A stretch of DNA of 64,000 nucleotides from the NCBI RefSeq assembly GCF_006125015.1, contig NZ_SZZN01000001.1, positions 3,038,001-3,102,000 on the forward strand. Direction: 5' to 3'. A model generated the notes under the pieces. That model searched no databases, was not told the DNA's origin, and saw only the letters and a list, made by a program, of their open reading frames with translations. The position numbers and the translations under genes were made by a program. The first letter of the stretch is position 1, and every line of letters begins with the position of its first letter. Positions 43,780 to 60,490 of the stretch are shown in pieces. Origin of the DNA: Roseovarius arcticus (GTDB taxonomy: Bacteria > Pseudomonadota > Alphaproteobacteria > Rhodobacterales > Rhodobacteraceae).

Positions 43780-45405
43780 TTATGGCTTCGGCGGGCAGTT
43801 TGTAATGGCCTGCTGCAGTCTCAGCATCGGCGTGCCGGAGCTAGACATATCGGTTGATTGAAGCATGCATTCCAAAGCTTCGTTACCAGTATAGCCGGAC
43901 CTCACCAATCTGAACAAAAGATGTCCAGAAGCGCAGTATGGCGACGCCATTGAGGTTCCGCTCATGCTGCCATAGGCGTTCCGCGAAAATTGACCGGTTA
44001 TATCGAATGCTACCGCGCTAAAAATGTCGACGCCCGGACACGAAATATGCCCGCCTGTATTTGAAAAGGGCGCGCGGTTTCCATTGGAATCATGCGCCTC
44101 AACAATGACACCGCTATTCGCAATACCTTGTTCTCGGGCCTCCAGTGCGGCCCAATTAAATGGGCTGGCAAATCTAGCGCTTATCGGTGTTTCAAGGCCA
44201 GTACTATCGTTGCCTGCCGCCGAAAAAATCACCCGGCCATTCCTATCTGCCAGCTCAAGCAGCGGGACAAGGATTGCGCCCTGTGAGGCAACCAAAGTCC
44301 GCCACTGAGCGGCGTCTGGTAAATCCGGGTTGATACCAAAGTTGCCTCGCCAGTTGTAACCCAGACTAATATTGAAAGTTAGAACTTCGTCTTGTTGGGA
44401 AACAAAGTTTTCAAGTGTCGCTAGCACCTGACTAAAGAGGACGAAAAACTCCAGTACTTGACCGCCCTCGTCGGCATTGAAAAATATGTCACCTGAACGG
44501 GCGCGAACAAAGCAATTTGGCAGGACTCCCTTAACACCGACCGCATTGTCATGCCGACCGCAACCAATTGCGGCCACGTGGTTGCCATGATCATCGACAT
44601 CTGTCCTGGGTGACAGGCCCATAAAAACCAGGTCCTCGTGCCGTGAAAAGCCTACATCCATAACTCCAAAGAGAACGCCGTCACGAGCATTGTCCAGCGA
44701 CCAGAGCTGGTCGGCTTCTATGTCTGCGATGCCCCAATCGGCCCTTTCAATTGGGTTGGCTGCATCTGACAAAACGACGTCGCTTGGCGTCAGAAGATTA
44801 GTAATAACAATTTCTGTTTCGGGATTGTCTTGATCGCGCAAAAACAAGTCTGGTGTAGCGTTTTTAATACGGGGATCAGATTTAAAATCCTCTACAATAT
44901 CAACCATCCCTCGCAGCAAAGCGTCATTCGCATTGTCGTCAGACAACTCAGGCATGAAGTACCTACTAAGATCACCTTCGGCCTGAACGGAGCGTATTGA
45001 CGGAAACTTGCGGATGATCTCAAGCTGTCGTTCGGCAAGAAATGCACTTACTTCAGCTTCTGTTGTGCCAGGTTCAAATTGAATAATCACACTATTGGGC
45101 GCTGCTATCGGAACCTCTGTCATGCCGTCTGCATTAAATTGAAGTTTCGTCGGCGCATCGGTAGGAAGTTGATCCGCGGTTACGCTAAACTGTAGAGTTT
45201 TTTGATCATCTATATTCTGACCTTTTAGGGGATCCTTCAAAAAGTCCGACTGAAACACTTCCTTTGCGGGCAAAGCTTGAATTGCTTGCTGAGTGACATC
45301 AGGAAGGAGACGCAGGTTTTCTTGGCTCAGGGCACTCTGAGCGTGCAGGCCGATATCAATAGAACCACCCAGCAAGATCGCTGCAATAAAAAGTGCTCTG
45401 GACAT
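43780..45405 (-). CDS. Secreted S8 (subtilisin-like) serine peptidase
   Basis: 541 residues with a signal peptide (MSRALFIAAILLGGSIDIGL, cleavage near HAQS). A long propeptide or N-domain (about 25-225) precedes the catalytic domain. The catalytic triad is visible: Asp in FGVMDVGFSRHEDL, His in DVDDHGNHVAAIGCGRHD and Ser in YGSMSGTSMASPYCASG, with the oxyanion Asn in FSAAGNDSTG. It should be exported and self-processed. Composition is visibly poorer in GC than the flanks, shared with the neighbouring cytochrome gene 74 bases upstream on the same strand, hinting at joint acquisition. Substrates are unknown. Confidence 0.92.
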   Translation of the reverse strand: MSRALFIAAILLGGSIDIGLHAQSALSQENLRLLPDVTQQAIQALPAKEVFQSDFLKDPLKGQNIDDQKTLQFSVTADQLPTDAPTKLQFNADGMTEVPIAAPNSVIIQFEPGTTEAEVSAFLAERQLEIIRKFPSIRSVQAEGDLSRYFMPELSDDNANDALLRGMVDIVEDFKSDPRIKNATPDLFLRDQDNPETEIVITNLLTPSDVVLSDAANPIERADWGIADIEADQLWSLDNARDGVLFGVMDVGFSRHEDLVFMGLSPRTDVDDHGNHVAAIGCGRHDNAVGVKGVLPNCFVRARSGDIFFNADEGGQVLEFFVLFSQVLATLENFVSQQDEVLTFNISLGYNWRGNFGINPDLPDAAQWRTLVASQGAILVPLLELADRNGRVIFSAAGNDSTGLETPISARFASPFNWAALEAREQGIANSGVIVEAHDSNGNRAPFSNTGGHISCPGVDIFSAVAFDITGQFSRNAYGSMSGTSMASPYCASGHLLFRLVRSGYTGNEALECMLQSTDMSSSGTPMLRLQQAITNCPPKP

Positions 45406-45479: not shown

Positions 45480-47222
45480 TCAAAGAGACTTCAGGTATTC
45501 CAAAAGCGCTTCTCGATCACCGTCACTCAGGCTGCTCCCGTACTCGTGACCGCAGCGGCTATTTCCAGAACCGACATCCGTACAATCAGTTGTTTCAAGC
45601 ACGTAGTCGAATTGGCTTTGCTCTGTAGACAATCCAACGCTTTCAATGTCGTAGCTCGGTCCAATCTTGAAAGCCACCGGCCGATCTGATGCAGGAAGCA
45701 ACAGCGCCTCCAGTGTCGGCACTGACCCATTGTGCAAGTAAGGGGCCGCGGCCCAAATGCCTTGTAGGACTCGCGCCTCGTAAGCGCACCCTGATCTATT
45801 TGCTGACGTGGTCAGTCCAGCGGGCGGTGGCTTGATCTCTCTAAATGCGCCTTTTAGCTGGCTTAGCTCAGGGGGTAATCCGCTGGTGGACAAAGCAGCG
45901 TTATCTGCCGACCCGAAACTAGTAATCCGCTGAAAAATTGTTCCGATTACGGCTGTCGACAGTAAATTGAACGCAGTATCCACCGGCTTGAGCGGATCTG
46001 TCAGGAAAGGAATTTTCGCGCCTTCCATTATCCCTGTATTTACTGTGCGTTCAAGAATCTTGCATTCACGGTTGTCCGTGCCGACATCTTGAATCGGGGT
46101 TTCCCAAGTTCCGCGTATAGTCCACCTGTTTGCGCCGGGACGTTGACCGTGACACTTGATACATCCACCATCAACCGACTCCCGGTTAAAAATTTCCTCG
46201 CCAGCTGCTGCAAGTGTGTGGTTAATTTCCCAAGGCCATTCTGGCGGCCCAATCTTCCATATGAGTTCCTCCAGATGTGACAAACCTTCGAAATTCGCGG
46301 AGTTGGACCCCAAATAGTCACGATTCAGAATAGTGAGACCGGTGGTTTTTGTGGGGTGCAAGACGCCAAATACCCCATAGACCTCACCAAGATTTCGGGC
46401 GAGGCCTAAAGTGTTATTTCCATTATCTGCAAAGCCAGGCCATTGCGTTTTATCCTGGCGCGCAGCGTTCCAAAGAAATGGATACCGGGTTGGAGCATCT
46501 GCTGGATAAATATTATCTGGGATTAGGTACGTAGGGGGAAGGCCGATATCCAGTCCAGCCAAGCGGTTGAAAATCATGGATACTGCATCAAGCCGCCCCG
46601 GCCCCCAAGCTGGATCTGGTAGGGCGCGGTTTGTCAAAGTACTGAAGCGTAAATGCCATAGCTCAAGTTCTAACTTGAGCTGCGCTTTCTCTTCGTCGTT
46701 GACCCCCGCCCCGATCACCTTTTCCGCGAAGATTTCGAAACTTGCGTTTTCGGATAAAACCAATGCCATGGCCGCATCAAGGTCAGCAAGAAAAGATTGA
46801 AAATCCACAATGCCGGGACCACCATCTATACGGAAGGGGGTGTTGTTTACCTCTATCTGCCGAGTATGACATGCCGCGCAGGTCATCCCTATCGACGGCT
46901 TCCCGTCATGCTGGGCCACAGTGAAGCCAACCGGAATGTCCAATGAGGCGCCATTTGGGTTCGGAAGGTAGCCATAGCGCGTCAAGCTATCTTCCAGAAA
47001 ACCAGTTCCGTCGGGCGACACTAAAGCACGCATCCAAGCCAGAGGCATAATCCGCGACCCCTGATCTTGAGTATAAAAAGCGCTCCTATTATAGGAATTC
47101 CATTCAGAACCTTGCTCAACAAAAACGGTTTGAGCGCTGATCGACATGCTGCTGAACGCGACTATCAGAGTAGCAAAGATGGGGCAAAAAAACGCGATGA
47201 AATTTTTTGAAACGCATTGCAT
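45480..47222 (-). CDS. Di-heme c-type cytochrome (cytochrome c peroxidase / RoxA-like)
   Basis: About 580 residues from the ATG at 47222, which begins a plausible signal peptide (MQCVSKNFIAFFCPIFATLI...SISAQ); upstream ATGs at 47231 and 47282 cannot be excluded. Heme sites are CAACHTRQIEV (about 115) and CIKCHGQRPG (about 365). AAPYLHNGSVPTLEALLLPA near the C-terminus is a signature of di-heme cytochrome c peroxidases and of the larger RoxA-type rubber oxygenases. Length is above that of ordinary CcpA (about 350), closer to the larger group. Periplasmic or secreted; the function is not fixed by sequence. It pairs with the S8 protease gene. Confidence 0.86.
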   Translation of the reverse strand: MQCVSKNFIAFFCPIFATLIVAFSSMSISAQTVFVEQGSEWNSYNRSAFYTQDQGSRIMPLAWMRALVSPDGTGFLEDSLTRYGYLPNPNGASLDIPVGFTVAQHDGKPSIGMTCAACHTRQIEVNNTPFRIDGGPGIVDFQSFLADLDAAMALVLSENASFEIFAEKVIGAGVNDEEKAQLKLELELWHLRFSTLTNRALPDPAWGPGRLDAVSMIFNRLAGLDIGLPPTYLIPDNIYPADAPTRYPFLWNAARQDKTQWPGFADNGNNTLGLARNLGEVYGVFGVLHPTKTTGLTILNRDYLGSNSANFEGLSHLEELIWKIGPPEWPWEINHTLAAAGEEIFNRESVDGGCIKCHGQRPGANRWTIRGTWETPIQDVGTDNRECKILERTVNTGIMEGAKIPFLTDPLKPVDTAFNLLSTAVIGTIFQRITSFGSADNAALSTSGLPPELSQLKGAFREIKPPPAGLTTSANRSGCAYEARVLQGIWAAAPYLHNGSVPTLEALLLPASDRPVAFKIGPSYDIESVGLSTEQSQFDYVLETTDCTDVGSGNSRCGHEYGSSLSDGDREALLEYLKSL

Positions 47223-47455
47223 AATGGGCATCCCAGATACAACTAATGCGTGAATCGTAGCGTATTTAACGATTCTGATCAAGTTTTCGGCAATTTTGGC
47301 TGGCTTTTTTGTTTATTCTCACCCTTCAACGGCTGCGATCAATCAGAAATATCTGGGCGTTCAAACCTCCAAATCAGTTCGATTTGCGGTAATTACGAAC
47401 ACTCTTTCAGCATGTAATGCCATTTTGATACAAGGGCGCTGGCGTCAGACAGGAA

Positions 47456-48412
47456 TCATTGGTCAACCAGATCGGCGCGCGCCCCAGCCGCATGTCCAGT
47501 ATGGAAAAACGCTTCTAGAGTGGAGATGTTTCTTGGAAGGTCCTGCACGTGGACGCGCCCTTCGGCGGGCACCAGTGGCGGCCAAACACCAAGTGTTCCG
47601 GCGCGCGCGCCACTCACCAGCCATTCGGCGGCTGGCAGGCAATCGTCGACCAGATAGTCGGTGCCGTCGATACGCGCTTTGAGGGCGTCGGACATTCCGC
47701 CAACCGCACGCCCATCAAGGCGGCAGGAGGCACGAACAATCACGTCGTCTGCATGTGATACGCGATAGCCTGAGGACCGCAATGCGCGAACGATGCGGCG
47801 ATCCTCGCCGTTTTCGTTGCGCTCAAACCCGCCCACAGCAACATATGCCGCTGGGGTAAAGGCCAAACTTGCACCTGCCGCTTCGCCATGCGTGCCAATT
47901 AGGTCAGCCGACTCTTCGGCATACTTGGCATATATCGTTTGAACCAGTGCTCTATAGCGCCCCTCGTTGGTAGCGAGAACGAGGTCCATCTCGCTTAAAA
48001 TACCCTTCTCGCTCTCGATTAAGTCGATCCGGCCGCATACCGCATCGACGGATTCAAGGTGGCGGGCGTTACATGCAATCCAATCCGCGGCGACGATACA
48101 ATCGGCATCCGTGGTCATCATGTATCTAAGGTGGCGCATCTGGCGCATGGCGTGATCGCACCCGATCCTTCGTGCAGCGCCTACGCCGTCTGCCGGGTTC
48201 AGGGCGCAGTCGAGGACCGTAAGGTCCAGATCATACTGCGCAGCTGTGTCGCGGGCCCTCTCGGCGGTCGCATCAATAGTGTTGTTGATCACCAGAATAA
48301 TTGTGGTGCGTTCAATTTGTCCGGCAAAAGCGGCCAGACAGGCGCCGATCCGCTCCGCCTCATTCCGGGCTGGAATGACGACTGCAATATTTTTGGATGT
48401 GTCATCCCTCAT
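47456..48412 (-). CDS. Glycosyltransferase family 2 protein
   Basis: 318 residues from the ATG at 48412, which shares its A with the stop of the methyltransferase gene (TGATG). The GT-A fold is clear: IAVVIPARNEAERIGACLAAF, the DxD in MMTTDADCIVAADWI and the acceptor-side Glu-Asp in GFERNENGEDRRIVRAL. The family moves one sugar from a nucleotide donor. It is the last of seven interlocked genes and lacks membrane segments, so it acts in the cytoplasm, perhaps finishing or initiating the same product. Confidence 0.9.
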   Translation of the reverse strand: MRDDTSKNIAVVIPARNEAERIGACLAAFAGQIERTTIILVINNTIDATAERARDTAAQYDLDLTVLDCALNPADGVGAARRIGCDHAMRQMRHLRYMMTTDADCIVAADWIACNARHLESVDAVCGRIDLIESEKGILSEMDLVLATNEGRYRALVQTIYAKYAEESADLIGTHGEAAGASLAFTPAAYVAVGGFERNENGEDRRIVRALRSSGYRVSHADDVIVRASCRLDGRAVGGMSDALKARIDGTDYLVDDCLPAAEWLVSGARAGTLGVWPPLVPAEGRVHVQDLPRNISTLEAFFHTGHAAGARADLVDQ

Positions 48413-48978
48413 CAGCCGGCCCTCGGCAGGCCACAATCAATGCGATATCCTTCGGTCTGCCAGACCAGATCAAATTCATGAGTGCCGCTTAGGGCATGTG
48501 CGAAAATTGCAAAGGCGTCGCTGCCCTGCAAATCGTTGCCCGATTGGCCGAAGTAGGACACGCAGATCAACTCGGCATCAGGCCATTTGTCAGCGACGGT
48601 AACGGCAAGTGTACCGAGGCTGTCTTTATCCAGAAAGTAGAGGATTTCGGAGAAAATCAGAAGATCGAAATCATCGTCAGGGAGGGGACAGGGATAGTAG
48701 CCCTGAGTAAAACTCGCTGTCGGAACGGCATGCCGTGCGGCCTCTAACGCCTTTTCCACAGCGTCCATGCCAGCGTATCGCGCGCAGATATCGGCGAGAT
48801 GGTAGGCCAGTTGACCATTGCCGCAGCCCAGCTCAAACGCGGATTGATAATGCGTGCGCGACAATGCCTTGCGGGTCTGCGCGAACTTCTGCCGCTCATA
48901 CCCGCTGGTTCTAAAGGCCCACGGATCGTCACCACCAGCATATAAGCCGTGAAGGTGCTCCAGCCCGACGCCCGTCAT
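48412..48978 (-). CDS. NodS-like SAM-dependent methyltransferase
   Basis: 188 residues. The N-terminal GGDDPWAFRTSGYERQKFAQT block and the SAM motif SAFELGCGNGQLAYHLADIC (about 46-65) match the NodS family, whose founder N-methylates the terminal glucosamine of rhizobial Nod factors. FDLLIFSEILYFLD is the post-motif II. The ATG overlaps the PIG-L stop by four bases and the stop overlaps the next ATG by one base. Because its neighbour is a PIG-L deacetylase, methylation of a freed amino group is a fair guess. Confidence 0.9.
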   Translation of the reverse strand: MTGVGLEHLHGLYAGGDDPWAFRTSGYERQKFAQTRKALSRTHYQSAFELGCGNGQLAYHLADICARYAGMDAVEKALEAARHAVPTASFTQGYYPCPLPDDDFDLLIFSEILYFLDKDSLGTLAVTVADKWPDAELICVSYFGQSGNDLQGSDAFAIFAHALSGTHEFDLVWQTEGYRIDCGLPRAG

Positions 48979-49682
48979 GGCATCCTCCAGAAAATTTCAT
49001 CGCTATCGATGAATTTGGCAACAAGCGCAGCAGGTAGCGTGAACCCGCTAGGATCGTCGCGGACAACCTGTCCCAGCTGGCTTCGGTGCGCTGCGATGGC
49101 TTCGCTCTTTGCTGCACGTAGTTCCGGAGCGCTCAATCGGGCCGGATCGTGCGCCGACACCGTCCGATCAAAATCGGGATCGTCCCAGCGGCACCAAACG
49201 GGATAGCTGTAGTAAAACCAATCAGGCCGCATCCGTCGCAAAATGTTGGCGACTTCGGCGGCGACCTTATGATCCTCATGGTGGTCTTCAACGGCGGGCA
49301 CGAAAATATGCCGCGCTCCGCAGTCGGCAATGATCACCGACAGGTCTGCCGCGATCTTGGTAGGATCAAGCTGATATAGACGGGCATCGGGCAGGCCCAT
49401 GCAGGTCACGTCGGCGGCGGTGCCCCCCAGCCTGATCACAGCGTCAACCAGTTCGTCCCGTCTGCACCGCGATAGCCTGCTCGGCGGCCATTCCTGTGAG
49501 TTAGGGTGCGAGGCGCTACCGTCTGTCATGCAAACGACATGTGCGCCGCCCCTGCCCGCGAATGCGCGCCCCAAAAGAGTACCGCAACCAAGCGACTCGT
49601 CGTCTGGGTGCGGCGCGACGACGACCAACTTGTCCTGCGTGGACAGAAAATCGAATAAGTAGGGGCGGCGATCCAGCATCAC
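48975..49682 (-). CDS. PIG-L family deacetylase
   Basis: 235 residues. The zinc site of the PIG-L/LmbE family is present: VVVAPHPDDESLGCGTLLG (about 20-39) and the second half VEDHHEDHKVAAEVANIL. The family removes N-acetyl groups from GlcNAc-containing substrates (GlcNAc-PI, mycothiol and bacillithiol precursors, some antibiotics). Four-base overlaps join it to the acyl-CoA-dehydrogenase-like gene before it and to the methyltransferase gene after it. No signal peptide is seen, so it is cytoplasmic. Confidence 0.92.
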   Translation of the reverse strand: MMLDRRPYLFDFLSTQDKLVVVAPHPDDESLGCGTLLGRAFAGRGGAHVVCMTDGSASHPNSQEWPPSRLSRCRRDELVDAVIRLGGTAADVTCMGLPDARLYQLDPTKIAADLSVIIADCGARHIFVPAVEDHHEDHKVAAEVANILRRMRPDWFYYSYPVWCRWDDPDFDRTVSAHDPARLSAPELRAAKSEAIAAHRSQLGQVVRDDPSGFTLPAALVAKFIDSDEIFWRMP

Positions 49683-50782
49683 TCAAAAATCCCCCAGGTG
49701 CCGCCGTCTTGGCCCAGAGCATGCTCCGCTGCGCGCTGCAAAAAAGCATCTCTCGCCGCCTGCCGCAGATAGACGGCCAAGTCGCGGGCCATCCTTCCGG
49801 TCTGTGATTGCGCATCAAAGTGCCGAAGCCCGATGCTTTGTTCGACTGCGCGGATCGCATCCAGCGCGACGTCTTCGGTTAGCAGCCTCGCGGCAATCGA
49901 GGTGGCGACAATCTGTTCCGTCGCAAGCCCAGCGTCTGTGGTCGCCATCGCAGCGCGCTCCACCAATGATGCACCCGCCCAAGCCCGCATCAGTATGGGC
50001 ATCAGGCGCGCCTGCTGCGGTCCTGCGTGCATACGGCCCATGGCGCGCAACTCCGCAGCGGCGCAGTCGATAAGGCCGATCGCAGCACCAACCTGCAGCC
50101 CGGCGATGCGCCAGACACCACCAACGAAATGCGGCTCTCTCAAGTAGTCGCCGGGCTCTCCCAGCCACTCGGCCTGGCTCATCGGAAAGTCCGTGAAATC
50201 AAACCTGCCTGACGCCGTCGCCTTCATTCCGTGCATATCCCACACGCTAGCATCTGCACGTGCTGTGTCCGAGACGTCGACCAAAGCCAGACGAACCTTT
50301 GGGCCTGAATTAACTGTGATGACAGCGTGGGTCACGGTTCCAAGGCCGGAGGCGAACATCTTGGCACCGCTCAGACAATCGCTTGGAGCCGTCCACGTTA
50401 CCGGAGTTTTGCCATCTGCGCCCCACACCCCCAGAAACGCGCCTTGATCGATCAACGTACGCACGCGGCGTTTTAGGTGTGGCGCTCCGTAGAGGTTGAT
50501 CAGGGTGGACGCATTCATGTGTCCCTCCCACAGTCGGCCGACGCAAAGATTGGCCGCGCCAACCTTCATCAGCAAATTGGCGGTTCGGTTCGGCGGCTCA
50601 CCGCTGCCCTGGAGCAGGAGGTCTGCTGACCTCAGTAAATCAATGGAATTAGCAATGGGACGCGTGCCATCTTCTTCAGCCGCCGCTCCGTCGGATAATT
50701 TGGCCAGCAAATCAGCAGAGATCTCGCCTTGGCCTACCTCATGAAATGGCATCTTGGGCGTGACATTTGAGACCGGCATCAT
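49679..50782 (-). CDS. Acyl-CoA dehydrogenase-like protein
   Basis: 367 residues with the overall pattern of an acyl-CoA dehydrogenase: helical N-domain (LLMKVGAANLCVGRLWEGHM), a middle beta domain (VTWTAPSDCLSGAKMFASGLG, RLALVDVSDTARAD), and a helical C-domain (GLQVGAAIGLIDCAAAELRA, ATTDAGLATEQIVATSIAARL). Similarity to textbook members is weak and I cannot see the usual catalytic Glu, so it may be a divergent flavoprotein, or an FAD-dependent enzyme with another task (dehydrogenation or N-oxygenation). It is locked into the operon by four-base overlaps on both sides. Confidence 0.75.
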   Translation of the reverse strand: MMPVSNVTPKMPFHEVGQGEISADLLAKLSDGAAAEEDGTRPIANSIDLLRSADLLLQGSGEPPNRTANLLMKVGAANLCVGRLWEGHMNASTLINLYGAPHLKRRVRTLIDQGAFLGVWGADGKTPVTWTAPSDCLSGAKMFASGLGTVTHAVITVNSGPKVRLALVDVSDTARADASVWDMHGMKATASGRFDFTDFPMSQAEWLGEPGDYLREPHFVGGVWRIAGLQVGAAIGLIDCAAAELRAMGRMHAGPQQARLMPILMRAWAGASLVERAAMATTDAGLATEQIVATSIAARLLTEDVALDAIRAVEQSIGLRHFDAQSQTGRMARDLAVYLRQAARDAFLQRAAEHALGQDGGTWGIFE

Positions 50783-51849
50783 CTAATTCCTTGTGCGAGA
50801 GAATACGAGGCGGCGCCCGATGGCGTCCGCTTAACCGCGCTTTGCAGAAGCTCGGCCCAGACATTCGCGACTTCAGCCATGTTAAATTCAGGATTGGTGG
50901 TTACGGCCGGGCAAGAATGCCGCCACTGGGCGATTTTCTTTAAGATAGCCTCCGGGTCATTGCCGTCAACGCGCTGCGCCTCGTCGGCCACAACCTCGTC
51001 ATTTGCGCCCAAACCCTCGTGGATCAGAACGGGCGTTCCCACTGCATTCGCTTCGGCCAGCACAAGACCGAATGTCTCGGCAAAGGACGTCTGCGGATTG
51101 AAGAGGCAGAGCGCCTGCCTCATGTGCTGGACAAGTACGTGATGCGGCAACGCGCCCAGAAATGACACACCATCTGGAACGGCGCCTGTATCCCACTTCA
51201 GATATCCGGGGTCCGCAACGGCGAGAGTGATACTAGGGATAGACAATCTCAACGCTGCGAACTGTTCAAACACTTGCCCAAGCCCCTTGTGGGGAGAACT
51301 TGCAAACAGCAGCTTATCTGCGTCGCGGGTTGAGCCATCGGGCCGCAAGCCATCAGCAACAGGATTGTAGATAAACGTAATATCAGGACGGTCAGACGTG
51401 CGGGTAAAAGTTGCTAGCGATCTCACATGTGTCCGCGAGACACAAATCACTGTTATGTCCGCGTCTTTCATAACGGCGCCCATCGCGCGGTTATGCCGTC
51501 CGGGGTAGACATGAAGCCACAGGAATATCGGCGTGCCGGGATAAAGTTTGCGCAGTTTGGCAGCAACTTTCCAGCGATTAAGCACAACAATTGCATCAGC
51601 GGCACGTGCCTGGCGCAAATGATCCAAAGGGCGTAGATCGCCCGCATCAGACCGAATGCTGTCACTGCGGCCAGCCTGATAATGGGTCACTCTGAATCGA
51701 AACCGCAAGGCTGTGGCGACACGCAATACCGTCGCCTCAGTCCCGCCCAGTCCGCTCTTTTCCAAGTCAGCCAGATCATAACCGCCTGCACAGCACGGAT
51801 CGACGAACGCAATCAATGGTAGGTTTGGTGGGTTCGCCAACATCATCAT
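50779..51849 (-). CDS. Glycosyltransferase family 4-type protein
   Basis: 356 residues from the first of three ATGs (51849, 51846, 51843); the open frame continues far upstream but that part is the shadow of the next gene. GT-B fold signs: GGYDLADLEKSGLGGTEATVLRVA (blocks at about 20-45) and the donor-binding FAETFGLVLAEANAVGTPVL with the Glu-x7-Glu pattern. It transfers a sugar from a nucleotide donor in the cytoplasm. Its start lies inside the stop of the upstream GT2 gene and its stop overlaps the next ATG by four bases. Confidence 0.9.
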   Translation of the reverse strand: MMMLANPPNLPLIAFVDPCCAGGYDLADLEKSGLGGTEATVLRVATALRFRFRVTHYQAGRSDSIRSDAGDLRPLDHLRQARAADAIVVLNRWKVAAKLRKLYPGTPIFLWLHVYPGRHNRAMGAVMKDADITVICVSRTHVRSLATFTRTSDRPDITFIYNPVADGLRPDGSTRDADKLLFASSPHKGLGQVFEQFAALRLSIPSITLAVADPGYLKWDTGAVPDGVSFLGALPHHVLVQHMRQALCLFNPQTSFAETFGLVLAEANAVGTPVLIHEGLGANDEVVADEAQRVDGNDPEAILKKIAQWRHSCPAVTTNPEFNMAEVANVWAELLQSAVKRTPSGAASYSLAQGIR

Positions 51850-52814
51850 TGGGCGGCCACCGCACTGGCAGCGCATGATGAGATGATAGCATTGACAGCT
51901 GCTGCCGTTCTGTCGGTCATAGGCACGTCGCGGGCGACGAGGCTGGCGGGGTTGCTGGCAAAACAAACCTGAAGAGCGTCTATATCGATAGGCACCGGTG
52001 CGATCCGGCCTGTCCTTCGCCATTCGTCGACCTTGCCCCATACCAGCTGTCGGTCGGCCTTTCGCTTTGCGCTGTCGTAGTCCGAGGTGCTGGATTGCGT
52101 CAGGCTGCCGGGTGTTTCGATCTTGGTTAGCAGCAACTCGGGAATGACCCACACAATCTCGCCATTTAGGATCAGGCGGTTGCGAAATTCCCGGTCTTCT
52201 TCGATGCAATCCTCGAACCCGCCAAGCCGCTTTAGCACCTCGGCACGAAAAAGGCCGGAATTGATGTGCGTCCATTCACCGGGTACGCGGCTACCCATCT
52301 GAAGATTTGGAAACACGTCGTCGAACAAAGAGATGTCCCGGCGGATTTCAACACGCTGCCCGTCCGGCAGGATAAGCTCGTGATGCGTAAGAGCCGCGCC
52401 GACCTTCAGCGTCTGGCCTGCACTCTTGCCAGCTAGCGCCCAATTCAGACAATCGTCAGCGCCGATATTCTGCGCGGTTAGAACCCGAACCTGATGTAGA
52501 ACCTTATCGCGATGCGGCAGATCGTCAGAATCGTGAAAGGTAATAGCCTCACCGCCAGTCAGCAAAATACCAGCATTTTTCGCCTGCGCCGTACCAAGGT
52601 TATGGACCAAGCGGACATAATTGAACCGTGGGTTACCAAAGAATTGGCGAACGGCGACGGGGGTGTCGTCGGTGCTGGCATCGTCAATGACAGTCACCCG
52701 GCAGTTCCACCATGACTGATCGAGTGCTGCCTGGACTGCCTTGGCAATAAGGTGAGCGCGATTGTAGGTCGGAATAACGATATCTACCAAAGGTGCGAGG
52801 GGGTCGATGCTCAT
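51846..52814 (-). CDS. Glycosyltransferase family 2 protein
   Basis: 322 residues. The GT-A N-terminus is VDIVIPTYNRAHLIAKAVQA, VTVIDDASTDDTPVAV, the DxD-like ITFHDSDDLPHRDKVL (about 94), and the acceptor loop FEDCIEEDREFRNRLILNGE. No membrane segments. It shares a four-base overlap with the processive-type GT2 gene upstream and with the GT4 gene downstream. Third sugar transferase of the cluster; donor unknown. Confidence 0.92.
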   Translation of the reverse strand: MSIDPLAPLVDIVIPTYNRAHLIAKAVQAALDQSWWNCRVTVIDDASTDDTPVAVRQFFGNPRFNYVRLVHNLGTAQAKNAGILLTGGEAITFHDSDDLPHRDKVLHQVRVLTAQNIGADDCLNWALAGKSAGQTLKVGAALTHHELILPDGQRVEIRRDISLFDDVFPNLQMGSRVPGEWTHINSGLFRAEVLKRLGGFEDCIEEDREFRNRLILNGEIVWVIPELLLTKIETPGSLTQSSTSDYDSAKRKADRQLVWGKVDEWRRTGRIAPVPIDIDALQVCFASNPASLVARDVPMTDRTAAAVNAIISSCAASAVAAQ

Positions 52815-54274
52815 GCTGTGGCACCCCCGGCATCCAGCGAGATAGAGGCGCGGTAGGACCTGAGATTGCGAGCAGTAAAGAGCGCGGCGGGCAGAGGCAG
52901 CATCAGCGTGATCAGTGCAGCTATGACAAGAATGTGGTGTGGCTCGGCAGCGATCAAAGCGCAGAGTGACAGGACAAAGAGTGCTACATGACCAATTGGC
53001 ACTGTGCGATACCGCGATACTGCGTCGCCGGATTTGTTGGTGACGATAAACTGTAGTTTTCCGCCTATCACGCCATCAAGGGTCGCTTTTGCCGATTGCG
53101 GTGCCAACGCAATTCGGCACGCTAACGCGGCAAGGATTGTCGAAAGGCTACGCGCCTCGTTGATGCCGCGCTCTGCCACGCGAAGGACGACGTCAAGAAG
53201 GCAGAGAACGATAGTGGCAGAGGCGAACGCCACCAACCCGGCAGTTGCGCTGTCCAAAAGTAGCGCGGCCAGCAGCAGGATCGCAGGCACTAAAGCTAGG
53301 TTAAACCACGCGGTGAGTTGCGTGATGACGACCAAACGCTGCTGAATATTGAGAGAGCTTGCGTGACCTGTGATGATCGGCAAGTGACGAAGGAGCGTCC
53401 GCAAGTTTCCACTGCACCAGCGATATCTTTGCTTCTCAAGATCGCGCAAGGATAGCGGTAGCAGCCCTTGCCCGACGACCTCATTAATAAAGCGGCCGGA
53501 GTATCCTGCATGGCAAAGCCTGACGCCTAGCTCTGCATCCTCGGTCGTGGTCGCACCCGACCATCCGCCGACGGCAACCAGCGCACGGCGCGAAATCACA
53601 CATAGCGTGCCCGTCAACAGCACCGCCTCCGCGTCATCAGCCATGATTGCATTTGATCTGAAATACTCCTCAAGCTCGGCGTCCACCCCGGCAGCCGCTT
53701 GATCCGTCAACCGATAGGATTGTGGAAACTGAACATAATCCGCGCCTGTGCGCCCTAGTGCGGAGGCCGCGATGCTCAGGAAATCTGGTTGCACGATGTA
53801 ATCGGCGTCGACAGTGACAACATGGGTCGCATCCGCCCGCGTATGATCAAGTGCGATGTTCAAGGCGCCCGCCTTGGCGCCCACGACACCTAGTCTGTGT
53901 AGGAAGGTCAGGCGGCCGGGATGCTGGCTGCAAAACGCCTCAACTGGCCCCCACAAGGCGATATCCTGTGTGTTATTATCCATCACGATCACCTCAAACG
54001 CACCCGTCGTCCAATCCTGGTTGAGCAATGACTGCAATGTGCGGATGACCACTGCGGGTGGCTCGGAATGGGTCGCAACGTGAATGGAAAATACCGGGAT
54101 GGGCTGCAATGCGCCGACATCGCTCGCTGGTTTGGACCGGCCCGCCATCATCGGGCGGAGGCTCATCAACATGATCTGAAGCGCAAGAATAGCGCCGCAT
54201 AAAATTACGCCAACAGCAGGCACCAGAACACAGACAAACAGCAGCGAAAAAATCATGAGCAGACGCAGTTCCAT
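52811..54274 (-). CDS. Membrane glycosyltransferase family 2, processive (cellulose/chitin-synthase) type
   Basis: 487 residues. An N-terminal membrane segment pair (LLMIFSLLFVCVLVPAVGVI and the following hydrophobic run), a GT2 catalytic domain and several C-terminal membrane segments. All four motifs of processive synthases are present: the first Asp region in EVIVMDNNTQD, DxD as VDADYIVQPDF, the TED in ATTTEDAELGVRL and QxxRW as KQRYRWCSGN. The layout is that of NodC, BcsA-like and ICA synthases, which build and export beta-linked polymers or oligomers. As first gene of the seven-gene operon it probably makes the backbone. Confidence 0.93.
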   Translation of the reverse strand: MELRLLMIFSLLFVCVLVPAVGVILCGAILALQIMLMSLRPMMAGRSKPASDVGALQPIPVFSIHVATHSEPPAVVIRTLQSLLNQDWTTGAFEVIVMDNNTQDIALWGPVEAFCSQHPGRLTFLHRLGVVGAKAGALNIALDHTRADATHVVTVDADYIVQPDFLSIAASALGRTGADYVQFPQSYRLTDQAAAGVDAELEEYFRSNAIMADDAEAVLLTGTLCVISRRALVAVGGWSGATTTEDAELGVRLCHAGYSGRFINEVVGQGLLPLSLRDLEKQRYRWCSGNLRTLLRHLPIITGHASSLNIQQRLVVITQLTAWFNLALVPAILLLAALLLDSATAGLVAFASATIVLCLLDVVLRVAERGINEARSLSTILAALACRIALAPQSAKATLDGVIGGKLQFIVTNKSGDAVSRYRTVPIGHVALFVLSLCALIAAEPHHILVIAALITLMLPLPAALFTARNLRSYRASISLDAGGATA

Positions 54275-54469
54275 CGTTCACCCCCGAGGTGTTAAACGCC
54301 GGAAGTGGCGCCTATAAATTAGCCAGTATGGTAGTCATCGGAGAACGTCGCCTTGGTCAGGTTAGTTCCCGGTCATTCGAACAGAGCGCCTGTCCGTCCT
54401 ACACCTTGGGTGTACCGCAGCATCGAAGCTGCCGCCTGCATCTAGATTGAATCGGCAAAGCATTTGTGG

Positions 54470-55204
54470 CTATGCCGGAAACCACGATGTATCCATATCA
54501 GCATAGCGATCATGGAAATCTGTCAGTGCAATCAGCTTGTCCTCCTGCAACAACTCCAGGTGGTTGTTTTGTCGGCGGATCACGCCGTCCTCTTCCATCT
54601 GGATCAGTGTTTTACTGATATAAACGTTGGTCAGGCCGAGATAATCGGCAATTTGGCTTTGGGTCATGGGGAGGCGAATGGTGTTTGTCATTCGCAGATT
54701 AGTGACCCTCAGTCTGGAAATGAGGTCAAGCAACATATAGCTCACCCGTTCGCGGGCGCTCATCCGTCCCATGGCTCGAAGAAGGTCGATGAGGACAACC
54801 TGCTCTCGCAGCGCGATCGATAGCAGCAGGGCAGACAGCCTTGGCGATTCTCTTAAAATGACGTCGAGCGCCGATTTAGGAAATGGACAGAGGCAAACCT
54901 CCTCCATTGTGCAGAGGGTCGTCGTCAGGTGCTTCAATGCGACATCCGGAAATCCGATGATGTCACCGGGGTGGTGAATTTTGACGATCTGTCTGCGGCC
55001 ATCGGGCAGATCCAAGTAACTGAACGCCCAGCCATGCTTGACCACATAGAGGTCGCCGTTGACGTCACCGCCCTGGTAGATTTCCACCGCAGCGCCAAAG
55101 GTTCGTTCAGATTTTTCGAGGTGCGCCAGTCTGGATTTGTCAGCGTCGGTCATGGTCACATAATGTGACAGCTTGGTGACTAGGCAGCTTGATCTATCGG
55201 ACAT
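54470..55204 (-). CDS. Crp/Fnr-family transcriptional regulator
   Basis: 244 residues. An N-terminal cyclic-nucleotide-type beta barrel (GGDVNGDLYVVKHGWAFSYL, IHHPGDIIGFPDVAL) leads through a long helix to a Crp-type HTH: LPMTQSQIADYLGLTNVYIS, then KTLIQMEEDGVIRR. No Fnr-type N-terminal Cys cluster is seen, so an oxygen-sensing iron-sulfur centre is unlikely. It lies 195 bases upstream of the seven-gene glycan operon on the same strand, and is divergent from a receiver protein gene. It may control the operon (inference). Confidence 0.93.
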   Translation of the reverse strand: MSDRSSCLVTKLSHYVTMTDADKSRLAHLEKSERTFGAAVEIYQGGDVNGDLYVVKHGWAFSYLDLPDGRRQIVKIHHPGDIIGFPDVALKHLTTTLCTMEEVCLCPFPKSALDVILRESPRLSALLLSIALREQVVLIDLLRAMGRMSARERVSYMLLDLISRLRVTNLRMTNTIRLPMTQSQIADYLGLTNVYISKTLIQMEEDGVIRRQNNHLELLQEDKLIALTDFHDRYADMDTSWFPA

Positions 55205-55569: not shown

Positions 55570-56559
55570 ATGAAAATTCTAGCGGTCGATGACGATCCGG
55601 TTATTCTCGAACTTCTCACGCATTTTGTCGCTGCTTCTGGCAGCCACAAGATAGTCACCGCATCGTCGGGCAAAGAGGCATTGGAAATCATAGAGCGCGT
55701 CGGCCTGCGCCAATTCGACTGCTTTCTTTTCGATATTCAGATGCCCGGCATGGACGGAATCGAGCTGATACGTGTGGTGCGGGAGTTACCACGTTGCGCC
55801 GATACGCCTATTCTCATGCTGACGGCGATGTCCGAAAAGCGCTATGTAGACGCTGCATTTGCCGCTGGTGCTATCGACTATGTGACCAAGCCCTTCGAGA
55901 TGTACGAGCTAAAAGGTCGCTTGGCCTTGGTCGACAAATTGGTCGAGGCACGTAAAAGTCGAACCAGCAAGATTTTAGGTGTCAAACCCGTCATTCGCAA
56001 AGGCGACATGCCAGCCCCCCCGAATGACGTGCTGCTTCACGAGCCTATCAAGATTCTCGAAGTGGAAAACGTGATTGAGTATCTGGCTATGGAGAATTAC
56101 GTGGCTCAGTTGTCGCGCAGTTCGCTGTTTGGATCGGTGACGTTCGCATTCTCAATCCGCCAGATCGAAGAAATCCATGCGAGGATGAGTTCATTTGAAT
56201 TCTATAGCCTGGTATCCGATGTGGCCGAGGTGATTTCCGATACCCTGCATGGGCATCAATTTCTGATGTCCTACGCCGGTAATGGTACCTTTGTCTGCGT
56301 CACCGAGAGCGGTTGGCGGCCTGATATGACGCAGTTGATGGACGCCGTGAACCTGTCGCTTTCGCGTACTGAACTCTATGACAATTCAGGCACGCGCGTT
56401 CAGGCGAGGGTCAGCACGGGCGATGCCATTCGCCTTATCTGGCAGAGCAAAGCAACCATTATGGACTCCATCGCCAAGGCCCACTCCAGCGCCGAGGCAG
56501 CCAGCGTCGCGTATGAAACCGCGCGCCATGATTACTGGTCTACAGAAAACCGCGCTTGA
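55570..56559 (+). CDS. Response regulator with degenerate GGDEF-like output domain
   Basis: 329 residues. The receiver domain (1-120) is complete: acidic pair in KILAVDDDPVI, phospho-Asp in FLFDIQMPGMDG, Thr in ILMLTAMSEKR and Lys in YVTKPFEMYELK. The C-terminal part (about 170-325) has the length and layout of a GGDEF domain (FAFSIRQIEEIHARMSSFEF, DTLHGHQFLMSYAGNGTFVCV), but the signature is YAGNGTF in place of GGDEF, so no cyclase activity is expected. It could bind a nucleotide or a partner. Divergent from the Crp/Fnr gene. Confidence 0.85.
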   Translation: MKILAVDDDPVILELLTHFVAASGSHKIVTASSGKEALEIIERVGLRQFDCFLFDIQMPGMDGIELIRVVRELPRCADTPILMLTAMSEKRYVDAAFAAGAIDYVTKPFEMYELKGRLALVDKLVEARKSRTSKILGVKPVIRKGDMPAPPNDVLLHEPIKILEVENVIEYLAMENYVAQLSRSSLFGSVTFAFSIRQIEEIHARMSSFEFYSLVSDVAEVISDTLHGHQFLMSYAGNGTFVCVTESGWRPDMTQLMDAVNLSLSRTELYDNSGTRVQARVSTGDAIRLIWQSKATIMDSIAKAHSSAEAASVAYETARHDYWSTENRA

Positions 56560-56734: not shown

Positions 56735-57124
56735 TCAGGCGCTCAGCTTTATGCGATGCTCGTCGAGAACTGCCATGATCTGATCGCCCAGCAAAAGCGG
56801 GTCAAAGGGCTTACTGATCACAGACGCCGCGCCACAAGCGTGGAGCCTTTCAATCTCTGCATGCTGTGCGCGCGCAGTCATAAAAATTGTCAGACCGAAT
56901 GGTATGGACGGCATTTCGCGTATCTTATCGAGCACTTCGCAGCCAGTCATTCCGGGCATCATCATATCCAGCAACAGCACATCGGGGCGAAACGTCCCAA
57001 CCTGCTGCAAAGCCTCTTGGCCGGAGGCGCATTGAAGCACCTCGAACTGTCCAGATAGCGAGAGCGCTAATTTTGCAATTTCCCGGATATCCGCATCATC
57101 TTCTACGTGTAAAATCTTGATCAT
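56735..57124 (-). CDS. Stand-alone response regulator receiver protein
   Basis: 129 residues from the ATG at 57124 (GAGGCGCAC lies upstream; the frame is open to 57232 without family similarity). CheY-like: ILHVEDDADIREIA, phospho-Asp in VLLLDMMMPGMTGCE (about 53), Thr in IFMTARAQHAEIE and Lys in VISKPFDPLLLG. No output domain. It follows the hybrid kinase gene on the same strand after 135 bases, so it may receive phosphate from it. Confidence 0.92.
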   Translation of the reverse strand: MIKILHVEDDADIREIAKLALSLSGQFEVLQCASGQEALQQVGTFRPDVLLLDMMMPGMTGCEVLDKIREMPSIPFGLTIFMTARAQHAEIERLHACGAASVISKPFDPLLLGDQIMAVLDEHRIKLSA

Positions 57125-57259
57125 GTGCGCCTCGTGATCACTGCCGGAATGGAAGTGAATTAATTGCGTTGAAAATCTAATATATAACAAATGCAAAAAC
57201 ATACAGGCAGAATTGTGACGGGATCGGTTCAAGTTTGCGAGTGGCGACAGTGGCCCATC

Positions 57260-60200
57260 TCAGGAGGCCCTTGCCAAACAACGCTTGACCGATTTGACGA
57301 TTGCGGGCAGCTCTGATCTGCTTTTGATCAGATCAATCAGTAGCCTGGGGTCTCTGGTCTGGTCCTCGTCGGCCGACAGACCGATAAGGTGCGCGCCCGG
57401 TTGCCGGGCTGCCAGCTTGTCCAAGAAGATGCGCACATCGTCACCCGGCAATGCGCAGTCGAGGATCACCGCATCCAGAAACGTGCTTGCCGAAATCTGT
57501 GCCGCGTCCGTCAGTGACGTCGCATGAATGACGTTTGCCACCGGCGCGAGCGCTGACGCGATCACCTCCGCAAAATCCTTGTCTTCTTCAAAGTGAAGCA
57601 CAGTCATCTTTTCGGCCGGGGAGTCCGTCAAATGTACGTCACTCGCGGCGCTGAATGGCTCATCTTGCTGCTCAAGCTCTTTGGAGATCGGGCAGGTAAA
57701 CCAGAACACGGTGACACCGTTGGCAACGCTTTCAAAACCGATCTCGCCCTCATGGCGTTTTATAATCTTTCGGGTGATGTTCAGGCCCAGACCAGTGCCG
57801 CCGATCGCGCGCGTATCAGTACTGTCTGCTTGGGAAAACGCTTGAAATATCTTTGACTGAAAACTCTCAGGCACTCCGGGGCCAAAATTTTGAATGTATA
57901 CGATCGCAAAGTCATCAATCCGCTCCGCTTTGATCAAGACTTTTGTGTCTTTGGATGAATATTTGCAGGCGTTAGATATAAGATTGGCGAGCACTTGTTT
58001 GATGCGGCTCGCATCAACACGCACATTCAGCGGGTCATCCGGCAGGTGCAACGTCAGCTGATTGCCATGAGTCAGCGCAAAGGGCGACATTTCTTCAATT
58101 GCGGCGCTGATGATCGGTGCGAGATCGTGAGTTTCAAAGTTAAACGCGACCTCCCCCGAGGAAATCTTCTCTAGGTCAAGAATATCATTGACGATGCTCG
58201 ACAGTCGATCAGCGTTAGAGCGTGCAATTTCGACCAAGCGGGCAGTCATTTTCGGAAGAGGCCGGTCCGATGAACCCTTTACCAAATCCAGCGCCCCTTT
58301 GATCGACGTCAGCGGTGTGCGCAATTCGTGGCTGACAGTCGCGACAAACTCATTCTTGATCTGGTCGAGCCGCTTTTGATCCGTGATGTCGTTAATCTGA
58401 ACGATGTAGAAATTCTCGTCAGTATTGCGATCATAGGTCCAGGAAATGTTGAACAGACCCCAGCGGATTTCACCATTGCTACGCAAAATGCGGTGCTGGG
58501 CCGAGTATGTCTGCTTGTTAGCCGCCAGCGTTATGGCCGAGACGCCTATATAGATCTCCTTGATGTCCTCACGCGGCATCATGTCTGCCAGTCTCGCATC
58601 TTGCGTGATCCGGTCTTCGCTGACGCCGCACAGCTTGCAGAATGCGTCGTTTACAAGCACGAACTGCCCCTTGCTGTCCACCAGGGCCATACCCACAGGT
58701 GCGGCCGCAACAACTTGTCGGAACCTCTGCTCGCTCACTTCCAGCGCGTTGCGTGCCTGATAAAGCTCGGTCACGTCCCATTCGGTGCCGATCATCCGGG
58801 TTGCTGTGCCGTCCTCTGCACGCTCAACAATGGACGAGTCAGAGCGGATCCACCGCCATTCGTTCTCACCGAATTTCACACGAAACTCGGAGACAGCCCT
58901 TTCACTCAAGCCTTCGGTGCAGTCCTTTTCGGTACGCATCATGACAAGCAAATCATCCGGATGAACCCGCGAGTAGAACATGGCTTGCGGGTCTATATCG
59001 AAGACATCTTCGTCATATCCCATATTGCGAAGCCAAGTACCTGACACTTCCATTTTGCCGGTGACAAAATTGAAATCAAATACACCGATCTGCCCGGCCT
59101 CGAGAGCCATATCATACAAGGTTTTTGCCCGTGTCAGATCTTCTTGGGCCTTGATCTGAGCCGTGACGTCCCGAACGATCGCTGTGGTTCGCCCGTGTCC
59201 GTCTGCATTGGTCCATTCGTTTCTTTGCAAATCCAAGAATAATGTAGGGCCGGTCTGTGCGGCGCCGTGAGCATTGTAGTCCTGCTGCTCACCCGAGGTT
59301 TTGATTTCCTTGATCAGGTCCGAAAATTTTAAACCGGAAAGGCTTGGATCATCATGACGCAACATAATCTGCGCCGCGCGATTTGAGAATAGAACGACAT
59401 CATCGGCATCTAGCACAAAAACTGCAATTACATCATTCTCGACGATTGCCTGATTTTCTCGATCTCGCGACTCGACTTGCCGCGTGCGAAGATCCGCAAC
59501 TTCCCGCATCGCTTCGCTACGTCGATTTATGGCTCGAAACAGGGAAAGCAGCAGCGCGGTCAACAGAATTCCGACAAGCAGAATGACAGCAGGTTGGTTG
59601 CTTTCAAAAGCATTATCGAACCGCGGTGTGCTGTGAAAGACTATGGTCCATGGACGTCCAAACTGTTCAACAGTGTATGTGGCCGAATGGGCGCCTTCAG
59701 TTTCCCCTGCGAGATGATTTTCAAAAATCATTTTCTCAGGAAGCGCGCTCGACCCATCGAAAAGGTGGAATGTATAACTGTCGCCTGAACTGGGTGTGAG
59801 ATCGGACAGCAGGTTTTTTGCTATGAAGGGGGCATAGACCCAACCAAGGAACTCACCTTTGCCATTTTGGTCGGCTAAAGATGCGCCTGCTTTTGCAAAA
59901 TACGGTACAAGCAACAGGAAACCAGCCTGTTCCTTTGCGTGTTGCAGGAGGTGAATAGGAGGTGTCAGCTGAGCTTCGCCTGTATCGCGGGCTAACTCCA
60001 GAACCTCCCTTCTCACGGGTTCGAACGTCACATCAAGGCCGAGTGCATTCAAGTTTTCATTGATAGGATAGATGTACTTCACCAGATAATGCGTCTGAGC
60101 ACCGGTAAGGTTCTTTATCGTGTAGTCTGGCTGCCCATCCTGCCGGGTCCGTCGCAGATAGTCGTCGATCTCGGCGTCTGGAACGGACTGAACAAAGCCA

Positions 60201-60490
60201 ATTCCGCTCACCCCTGGCAAAAGCGTCTTCGCCTCTAGCTGGCTGACGTAGTCTGCAAAGGCTGCATGTGACATTTTATCGGCAACACGAAGGAATGCGG
60301 CCGTACCTTGGAGCGCCTGCAGATAGGTCTGCATACGTGTTTGAAGAACCTGAACGCCATCCTCGCTCAAGCGTCGAAACTCACCATCTGCGGCCTGATC
60401 TTTGGACGCGACGCTGACGGAGAAGAGTATCGCTGTGACGAGCATGCATAAGCATGTGAAAATCAATTCAGCCCAGCCCGGCAACTTCAT
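57260..60490 (-). CDS. CHASE-PAS hybrid sensor histidine kinase
   Basis: 1076 residues. Order: membrane segment (LIFTCLCMLVTAILFSVSVA), periplasmic CHASE domain (GIGFVQSVPDAEIDDYL, VTFEPVRREVLELARDTGEA), second membrane segment near 310 (PAVILLVGILLTALLLSLF), three PAS-like repeats (about 350-690), then HisKA with the phospho-His at about 721 (FVATVSHELRTPLTSIKGAL), HATPase (LISNACKYSSKD, GTGLGLNITRKI), and a C-terminal receiver with Asp in AVILDCALPGDD. The CHASE domain senses small extracellular ligands. The receiver lacks an obvious conserved Lys context, so it may be divergent. The gene is first in a unit with the stand-alone receiver. Confidence 0.93.
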   Translation of the reverse strand: MKLPGWAELIFTCLCMLVTAILFSVSVASKDQAADGEFRRLSEDGVQVLQTRMQTYLQALQGTAAFLRVADKMSHAAFADYVSQLEAKTLLPGVSGIGFVQSVPDAEIDDYLRRTRQDGQPDYTIKNLTGAQTHYLVKYIYPINENLNALGLDVTFEPVRREVLELARDTGEAQLTPPIHLLQHAKEQAGFLLLVPYFAKAGASLADQNGKGEFLGWVYAPFIAKNLLSDLTPSSGDSYTFHLFDGSSALPEKMIFENHLAGETEGAHSATYTVEQFGRPWTIVFHSTPRFDNAFESNQPAVILLVGILLTALLLSLFRAINRRSEAMREVADLRTRQVESRDRENQAIVENDVIAVFVLDADDVVLFSNRAAQIMLRHDDPSLSGLKFSDLIKEIKTSGEQQDYNAHGAAQTGPTLFLDLQRNEWTNADGHGRTTAIVRDVTAQIKAQEDLTRAKTLYDMALEAGQIGVFDFNFVTGKMEVSGTWLRNMGYDEDVFDIDPQAMFYSRVHPDDLLVMMRTEKDCTEGLSERAVSEFRVKFGENEWRWIRSDSSIVERAEDGTATRMIGTEWDVTELYQARNALEVSEQRFRQVVAAAPVGMALVDSKGQFVLVNDAFCKLCGVSEDRITQDARLADMMPREDIKEIYIGVSAITLAANKQTYSAQHRILRSNGEIRWGLFNISWTYDRNTDENFYIVQINDITDQKRLDQIKNEFVATVSHELRTPLTSIKGALDLVKGSSDRPLPKMTARLVEIARSNADRLSSIVNDILDLEKISSGEVAFNFETHDLAPIISAAIEEMSPFALTHGNQLTLHLPDDPLNVRVDASRIKQVLANLISNACKYSSKDTKVLIKAERIDDFAIVYIQNFGPGVPESFQSKIFQAFSQADSTDTRAIGGTGLGLNITRKIIKRHEGEIGFESVANGVTVFWFTCPISKELEQQDEPFSAASDVHLTDSPAEKMTVLHFEEDKDFAEVIASALAPVANVIHATSLTDAAQISASTFLDAVILDCALPGDDVRIFLDKLAARQPGAHLIGLSADEDQTRDPRLLIDLIKSRSELPAIVKSVKRCLARAS

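Follow-up and report, generated by a model that had tools for sequence, protein, structure and literature searches.

The window analysed here is a stretch of 64,000 nucleotides from Roseovarius arcticus (NZ_SZZN01000001.1, positions 3,038,001 to 3,102,000), part of a contig of 4.1 Mb in a genome of 4.22 Mb. It carries on its minus strand, from 54274 to 47456, a run of seven genes for three GT2 glycosyltransferases (GT2A, GT2B and GT2C), a GT4 glycosyltransferase, a flavoprotein of the acyl-CoA dehydrogenase (ACAD) fold, a PIG-L de-N-acetylase and a NodS-like methyltransferase. The core of this run is the quartet of flavoprotein, PIG-L, methyltransferase and GT2C, while the GT2A-GT2B-GT4 trio is an addition found for the most part in the Roseobacteraceae and their relatives. 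On the evidence below, the run is probably an operon of the general stress response that makes a glycoconjugate with a de-N-acetylated, methylated and oxidised aminosugar.

Conservation of the four-gene core

A scan of the GTDB species genomes returned at least 596 matching stretches; among the matches listed, 556 encode relatives, and the best 80 were kept. In all, 131 deduplicated flavoprotein loci, the window included, were compared, after ten duplicates (L034, L035, L037, L040, L041, L042, L129, L131, L172 and L175) and two loci without the ACAD-fold gene (L173 and L174) had been dropped. An evenly drawn sample of 398 Pseudomonadota genomes (the phylum sample) gave 34 matches to the flavoprotein profile, of which 31 loci were inspected; the remaining three (G000, G009 and G014) had been collected before.

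The flavoprotein, PIG-L and methyltransferase genes lie in one same-strand run in 120 of the 131 loci, and the full quartet is found within 9 kb in 114. The 31 loci of the phylum sample contain the methyltransferase in every case, PIG-L in 27 and GT2C in 25. Pairwise protein distances within the quartet correlate at 0.75–0.90 over 106 loci (the other 25 having a family member missing or odd lengths), as compared to a permutation maximum of 0.135, with common species history contributing to these values. PIG-L and the methyltransferase form a single open reading frame (ORF) in seven loci, including those of Aureimonas and Advenella, the methyltransferase and the flavoprotein do so in one (Novosphingobium rosa, L118), and P0066 joins the flavoprotein and PIG-L in a single protein. 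Every pairing among these three genes is thus fused at least once, and the quartet, which is co-inherited, behaves like a functional unit. The suggestion of a preliminary description of this DNA that the genes belong together is thus upheld by conserved order, correlated divergence and fusions.

PIG-L is out of view in nine loci, and four of these genomes could be searched. Two, both alphaproteobacterial, hold a PIG-L of the family near a GT2C gene elsewhere in the genome, the third holds one about 12 kb away, and the fourth gives a weak match only. Some non-alphaproteobacterial loci (L190, L191, L193 and L197) have a second PIG-L gene directly after the cassette.

The distribution is patchy and extends beyond the phylum. 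Of 196 genomes of the order, 20 have the flavoprotein, as does one of eight other genomes of the genus, and the best named homologues of the protein are from Roseovarius. In Nostoc all four genes of the quartet occur, the glycosyltransferase being on the opposite strand. The quartet of Deinococcus AJ005 includes an extended flavoprotein, and Deinococcus radiodurans has the genes of flavoprotein, PIG-L and methyltransferase, interrupted by one for a helicase. The N-terminal extension of the flavoprotein measures about 400 residues in two Deinococcus species (L030:6714-9077 and L240:5543-7882), and that of L030 has no Pfam match. In Rubrobacter indicoceani a PF01522 (NodB-type) deacetylase is encoded beside the flavoprotein (L243:5901-6773), together with a methyltransferase and a glycosyltransferase, and no PIG-L was found in the stretch inspected; this deacetylase is a possible non-orthologous replacement of PIG-L. 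When the Rubrobacter protein and a short motif were used to search the nine loci without PIG-L for a NodB-type substitute, none came to light; it was seen only in Rubrobacter.

The GT2A-GT2B-GT4 trio

The full seven-gene order is present in 25 of the 131 loci, the window included, as 23 exact runs and two runs followed by KatE. Since the identical order recurs in this way, the run is not a chance arrangement. One of the 25 belongs to an uncultured Granulosicoccus, a gammaproteobacterium (L083). Eight loci have the order GT2A-GT2B-GT4-KatE-GT2C-ACAD-PIGL-NodS, with a long catalase within the run. By contrast, none of the 31 loci of the phylum sample has GT2A or GT2B, or the full order, and it is because of this that the quartet is regarded as the core. 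Relatives of GT2B (E 1e-40) are found in eight of 248 genomes of the family, the present one included; six of the eight, again including it, have both trio and quartet, and in one (L174) the contig is too short to judge.

The preliminary description had taken the seven genes as the unit, and this is not borne out. The order is kept in near relatives wherever the set occurs, and the scattering that would have spoken against a unit is not seen there, although the flavoprotein of only one other Roseovarius genome in eight stands behind this at the level of the genus. The order is not conserved across the phylum sample.

Predicted control by EcfG

A match to the promoter motif of EcfG, the general stress sigma factor, precedes GT2A. 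The motif of alphaproteobacteria is given as GGAAC-N16-CGTT in the relevant passages of PMC3892343 and PMC7083833, and a looser spacing in that of PMC6599016. The site at 54369-54344 is the only GGAAC-N16/17-CGTT match in the window, where 0.73 would be expected by chance; it sits between the gene of a Crp/Fnr-family regulator and GT2A, and relatives have similar sites at comparable positions.

Upstream regions of 300 bases were available for 128 of the 131 loci, the other three having too little upstream sequence. Exact motifs occur in 18 of the 128, compared with a mean of 0.76 for permuted motifs (500 random draws with repeats; maximum 11, for GGAAC with GTTC) and of 0.74 for shuffled sequences (200; maximum 5). 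Sites agreeing at 8 or more of the 9 positions are present in 65 of the 128; for 150 distinct permuted motifs that never kept GGAAC, the mean is 7.9 and the maximum 25. Divided by class, as assigned from record titles, kinship and, for two genera, taxonomy, with L030, L083, L116 and L186-L206 counted as non-alphaproteobacterial, such sites are found in 64 of 104 alphaproteobacterial regions, in 12 of 104 when the opposite strand of these regions is read, and in one of 24 others, this one being L083, with GCAAC replacing GGAAC. The corresponding numbers for the exact motif are 17/104, 0/104 and 0/24.

The genome encodes PhyR, NepR, an EcfG-like sigma factor and an HWE-type kinase together (locus L239), with NepR above its cut-off. 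In the sample of the order, NepR is present in all 20 genomes that have the flavoprotein and in 114 of the 176 others (p 3e-4). A second, sub-threshold NepR-like match was noted at G000:C1:3390857-3390946; some 110 bases past it (3391056) lies an exact EcfG-type motif. Exact motifs also lie about 40 bases upstream of the ORF of a long catalase of this genome (G000:C1:2195401-2195426) and about 12 bases upstream of a 195-residue gene with a Catalase_C match (G000:C1:3812498-3812522), hinting at a wider regulon.

Stress-related neighbours

Genes of stress responses and DNA repair recur around the cassette. Within 9 kb of the flavoprotein, KatE is found in 35 of the 131 loci, a Crp/Fnr regulator in 38 (and in 19 of the 23 exact seven-gene runs), YetF/DUF421 in 25, DUF892 (YciE-like) in 22, LigD in 16 and Ku in 13. 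KatE lies inside the gene run itself in 20 loci, in eight of them between GT4 and GT2C. On an Acinetobacter johnsonii plasmid, catalase, DUF421, the cassette and otsA-otsB adjoin each other. Long catalases (PF18011) were found in nine of 61 genomes of the order, namely in four of five with the flavoprotein and in five of 56 without it (p 0.001). This setting is missing from the preliminary description, and it is the recurrence of KatE, Ku and LigD, together with the EcfG motif, that brings it out.

A close precedent is the operon ACICU_02432-02435 of Acinetobacter baumannii, which unites the four gene types (glycosyltransferase, methyltransferase, LmbE and ACAD-related protein). According to the expression data given in PMC5660220, it is down 31- to 62-fold in colistin-dependent mutants, co-regulated with catalase and trehalose synthesis genes, and the same gene types are listed beside blsA in PMC6240043. 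In the passages concerned, both papers treat the genes as expression or map entries, propose no function for them and make no mention of the glycosyltransferase trio. Keyword searches of one open-licence library gave no paper treating the cassette as a system, and these two were the only mentions.

Enzymes and likely chemistry

The catalytic residues of the core enzymes are intact. The HPDDE and HxDH zinc/catalytic motifs of PIG-L are invariant in 25 of 25 aligned members, and the DxD and ED motifs of GT2C are kept in 54 of 54. With these residues, and with a NodB-type deacetylase beside the flavoprotein in one Rubrobacter, the earlier idea that the genes work on an amino sugar is probably right. 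The methyltransferase scores 41.8 bits with the Pfam NodS model, above its cut-off of 24, and PIG-L 85 bits with its own (cut-off 28.2).

No Pfam family matches the ACAD-fold protein at 1e-3. Its nearest solved sequences are those of the group D flavin monooxygenases DszC (E 7.6e-16) and MsuC (7.9e-11; profile A2), a similarity of the kind looked for in this class; a smaller profile matched DnmZ and KijD3 as well, which are amino-sugar oxidases. The good alignment with DszC is limited to about 190 N-terminal positions, and the C-terminal half is nearer to acyl-CoA dehydrogenases. The usual catalytic glutamate of the latter lies after the RD motif. The alignment with VLCAD stops at RDLavy, past which the family shows LRQAA- or LRQPx-like letters, and the glutamate is not evident, the alignment ending before that region. 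The flavoprotein is more likely a two-component flavin monooxygenase than an acyl-CoA dehydrogenase, and on these grounds the sugar or its amine is the favoured target of oxidation.

Proposed pathway

Under stress, the PhyR-NepR-EcfG switch would let EcfG transcribe the operon from the site at 54369-54344, and the Crp/Fnr-type protein encoded directly upstream may tune it. The simplest order of reactions starts with GT2C, which would move an N-acetylated sugar onto an acceptor. PIG-L would then strip the N-acyl group, the NodS-like enzyme would methylate the freed amine, and the flavoprotein would oxidise the product, at the sugar or at its amine. Together with GT2B and GT4, the membrane-bound GT2A would in this lineage build or lengthen the glycan. 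The resulting glycolipid or small glycoside would help the cell survive oxidation or drying. The gene set and its order, the co-inheritance, the fusions, the enrichment of the promoter motif and the co-occurrence with NepR are results of computation; binding by EcfG, the reaction order, N-methylation, the oxidation, the acceptor and the protective role are inferred.

A number of observations weigh against this proposal. The best 80 stretches of the GTDB scan are biased to close relatives, and the loci are related rather than independent. Forty of the 104 alphaproteobacterial loci have no site of 8/9 or better, and the genome itself is not enriched for the motif, with 64 exact matches where the reversed control has 122. 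Taken by itself, the motif is thus weak evidence genome-wide; the argument rests on the position, strand and taxonomic controls. NepR is common (134/196), so its co-occurrence is supportive and not decisive. The stress neighbours are rarer in the phylum sample (KatE 4, YetF 3, DUF892 3, Ku 2 and LigD 2 of 31 loci), and of the neighbour counts that of the long catalases alone has a control. One genome of the family (G740, L173) has the trio with no quartet within 20 kb, and the fused ORFs were called mechanically. On the chemical side, the C-terminal half of the flavoprotein, taken alone, best matches acyl-CoA dehydrogenases, and a dehydrogenase role is therefore possible; the label of acyl-CoA-dehydrogenase-like protein given in the preliminary description fits this half better than the N-terminal one, which is closer to DszC and MsuC. 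There is no flavin reductase among the seven genes, and membership of the NodS-like family is by itself no proof that the methylation takes place at nitrogen.

Alternative explanations

We have also considered that the product is a low-molecular-weight thiol or another small soluble protectant. In the synthesis of mycothiol and bacillithiol, a GT4-type enzyme (MshA or BshA) first makes a GlcNAc glycoside, a PIG-L protein (MshB or BshB) de-N-acetylates it, and the amine is then modified. The cassette has the same succession of glycosyltransferase and PIG-L and a similar antioxidant setting, antioxidant genes being frequent neighbours; four genes suffice in many lineages, and PIG-L resembles BshB2 (40.4 bits), BshB1 (31.3 bits) and, weakly, MshB chains. 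However, these scores are far under the curated cut-offs of 195.25 (BshB2) and 182.5 (BshB1), the core glycosyltransferase is a GT2 and not a GT4, a methyltransferase and a flavoprotein are added, no MshC/BshC-like ligase was matched among the seven proteins, and the trio with its membrane-bound GT2A suggests an envelope product in this lineage. This alternative is accordingly unlikely.

Somewhat less likely again is an ordinary operon for the decoration of surface polysaccharide, whose proximity to stress genes would be incidental. Four glycosyltransferases, one of them membrane-bound, would fit such a role, as would the patchy occurrence within the genus, the glf gene and further glycosyltransferases adjoining the Deinococcus cassette, and the few stress neighbours in the phylum sample. 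Against it stand the enrichment of the EcfG motif and the catalase, Ku, LigD and trehalose genes that distant lineages have close to the cassette, and no flippase or polymerase is among the approximately 18 annotated neighbour families (of 45 clusters listed).

A pathway like that of the Nod factors, in which GT2A would make a chitin-type oligomer that is deacetylated by PIG-L and N-methylated to yield a signal molecule, appears very improbable. Nod-factor synthesis uses a GT2, a de-N-acetylase and a NodS-family methyltransferase in series, and the cassette shares this logic with rhizobial nodABCS; GT2A has processive-type motifs, and Rubrobacter a deacetylase of NodB type. The scores with the equivalog models are nevertheless low, 37.8 bits for GT2A with NodC (cut-off 550) and 48.9 bits for the methyltransferase with NodS (cut-off 300). 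No acyltransferase family, NodA included, was matched at 1e-3 among the seven proteins, to which this search was confined, in agreement with what had been noted before. PIG-L stands in place of NodB in nearly every locus, the flavoprotein is additional, and the neighbours are those of stress and not of symbiosis. In the phylum sample all 31 loci lack GT2A and GT2B, and the core thus works without that synthase. The parallel drawn in the preliminary description stands as one of logic; by the curated cut-offs, GT2A is not a NodC and the methyltransferase not a NodS. Membership of the Nod-factor and the thiol pathways is rejected by the curated models, and the resemblance to the Nod factors is best taken as an analogy only.

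Anti-phage defence through glycan modification is scarcely credible: the GT4 gives a weak GT4-conflict match (19.9 bits, below cut-off) and the cassette is patchy and often plasmid-borne, but PADLOC returned for eight proteins two weak domain-level matches only, to a methyltransferase stretch and to the Crp/Fnr helix-turn-helix.

The gene run and its surroundings

The seven genes on the minus strand overlap by one to four bases at every junction, as had been described. The overlap is of four bases between GT2A and GT2B (52811-52814), GT2B and GT4 (ATGA, 51846-51849), GT4 and the flavoprotein gene (50779-50782), and PIG-L and the methyltransferase gene (48975-48978), and of one base between the latter and GT2C (48412). 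For the flavoprotein and PIG-L genes it is four bases with a GTG start and one base with the next ATG. Two ORFs were listed overlong: that of GT4 (50779-52275) probably starts at about 51849, and that of GT2C, listed from a TTG at 48436, has an ATG at 48412. Family searches assign three GT2 and one GT4 among the seven proteins, and agree with the earlier assignments apart from the acyl-CoA-dehydrogenase-like protein. GT2A carries the motifs expected of the processive enzyme that it had been taken for (DAD 156, TED 244, QRYRW 282), and a simple hydropathy scan gives it six hydrophobic stretches, one inside the catalytic part and two overlapping. The coordinates are collected in Table 1.

Table 1. 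Features of the seven-gene run and its upstream region, in window coordinates
Feature	Position	Strand	Remarks
Crp/Fnr-family regulator	54470..55204	-	directly upstream of the operon; family match
Predicted EcfG promoter, GGAAC-N17-CGTT	54344..54369	-	69 bases from motif end to GT2A start
GT2A	52811..54274	-	membrane GT2, cellulose-synthase/NodC type; motifs DAD, TED, QRYRW
GT2B	51846..52814	-	GT2; membrane stretch not predicted
GT4 glycosyltransferase	50779..51849	-	start corrected from 52275; family match
ACAD-fold flavoprotein	49679..50782	-	nearest solved sequences DszC/MsuC monooxygenases
PIG-L (LmbE) de-N-acetylase	48975..49682	-	HPDDE and HEDH motifs intact
NodS-like SAM methyltransferase	48412..48978	-	matches 4isc, 8e-17, and NodS 3ofj, 7e-7
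GT2C, cassette glycosyltransferase	47456..48412	-	invariant DxD and ED

Directly downstream, on the same strand, are the genes of a protein of the di-heme cytochrome c peroxidase type that has a RoxA-like stretch (45480-47282; NF040606, 458.7 bits) and of an S8 subtilase (43780-45405). Upstream lie a response regulator gene (55570-56559, plus strand), an ORF that resembles a response regulator by eye (56735-57232, minus strand) and the gene of a large CHASE-PAS histidine kinase (57260-60490, minus strand).

Implications

In the records inspected, each gene of the cassette goes under a label of its own: acyl-CoA dehydrogenase, PIG-L or LmbE protein, methyltransferase, glycosyltransferase. Such names may mislead, as we found no pointer to fatty-acid oxidation or to nodulation. 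Beyond the operon of R. arcticus, we suggest tentatively that a mobile four-gene cassette, present in Pseudomonadota, Cyanobacteriota and Deinococcota and, with a swapped deacetylase, in Actinomycetota, may make an undescribed stress metabolite with an oxidised N-methyl amino sugar, a widespread protectant against desiccation or oxidation placed under the stress regulator of each host, EcfG in the alphaproteobacteria. There is a fair chance that the product itself is new. The predicted EcfG promoter makes the idea of a stress operon directly testable, and the minimal version of four genes is small enough to express. If the proposal is true, an unrecognised protective glycoconjugate would stand behind a gene set that has been kept together across several phyla.

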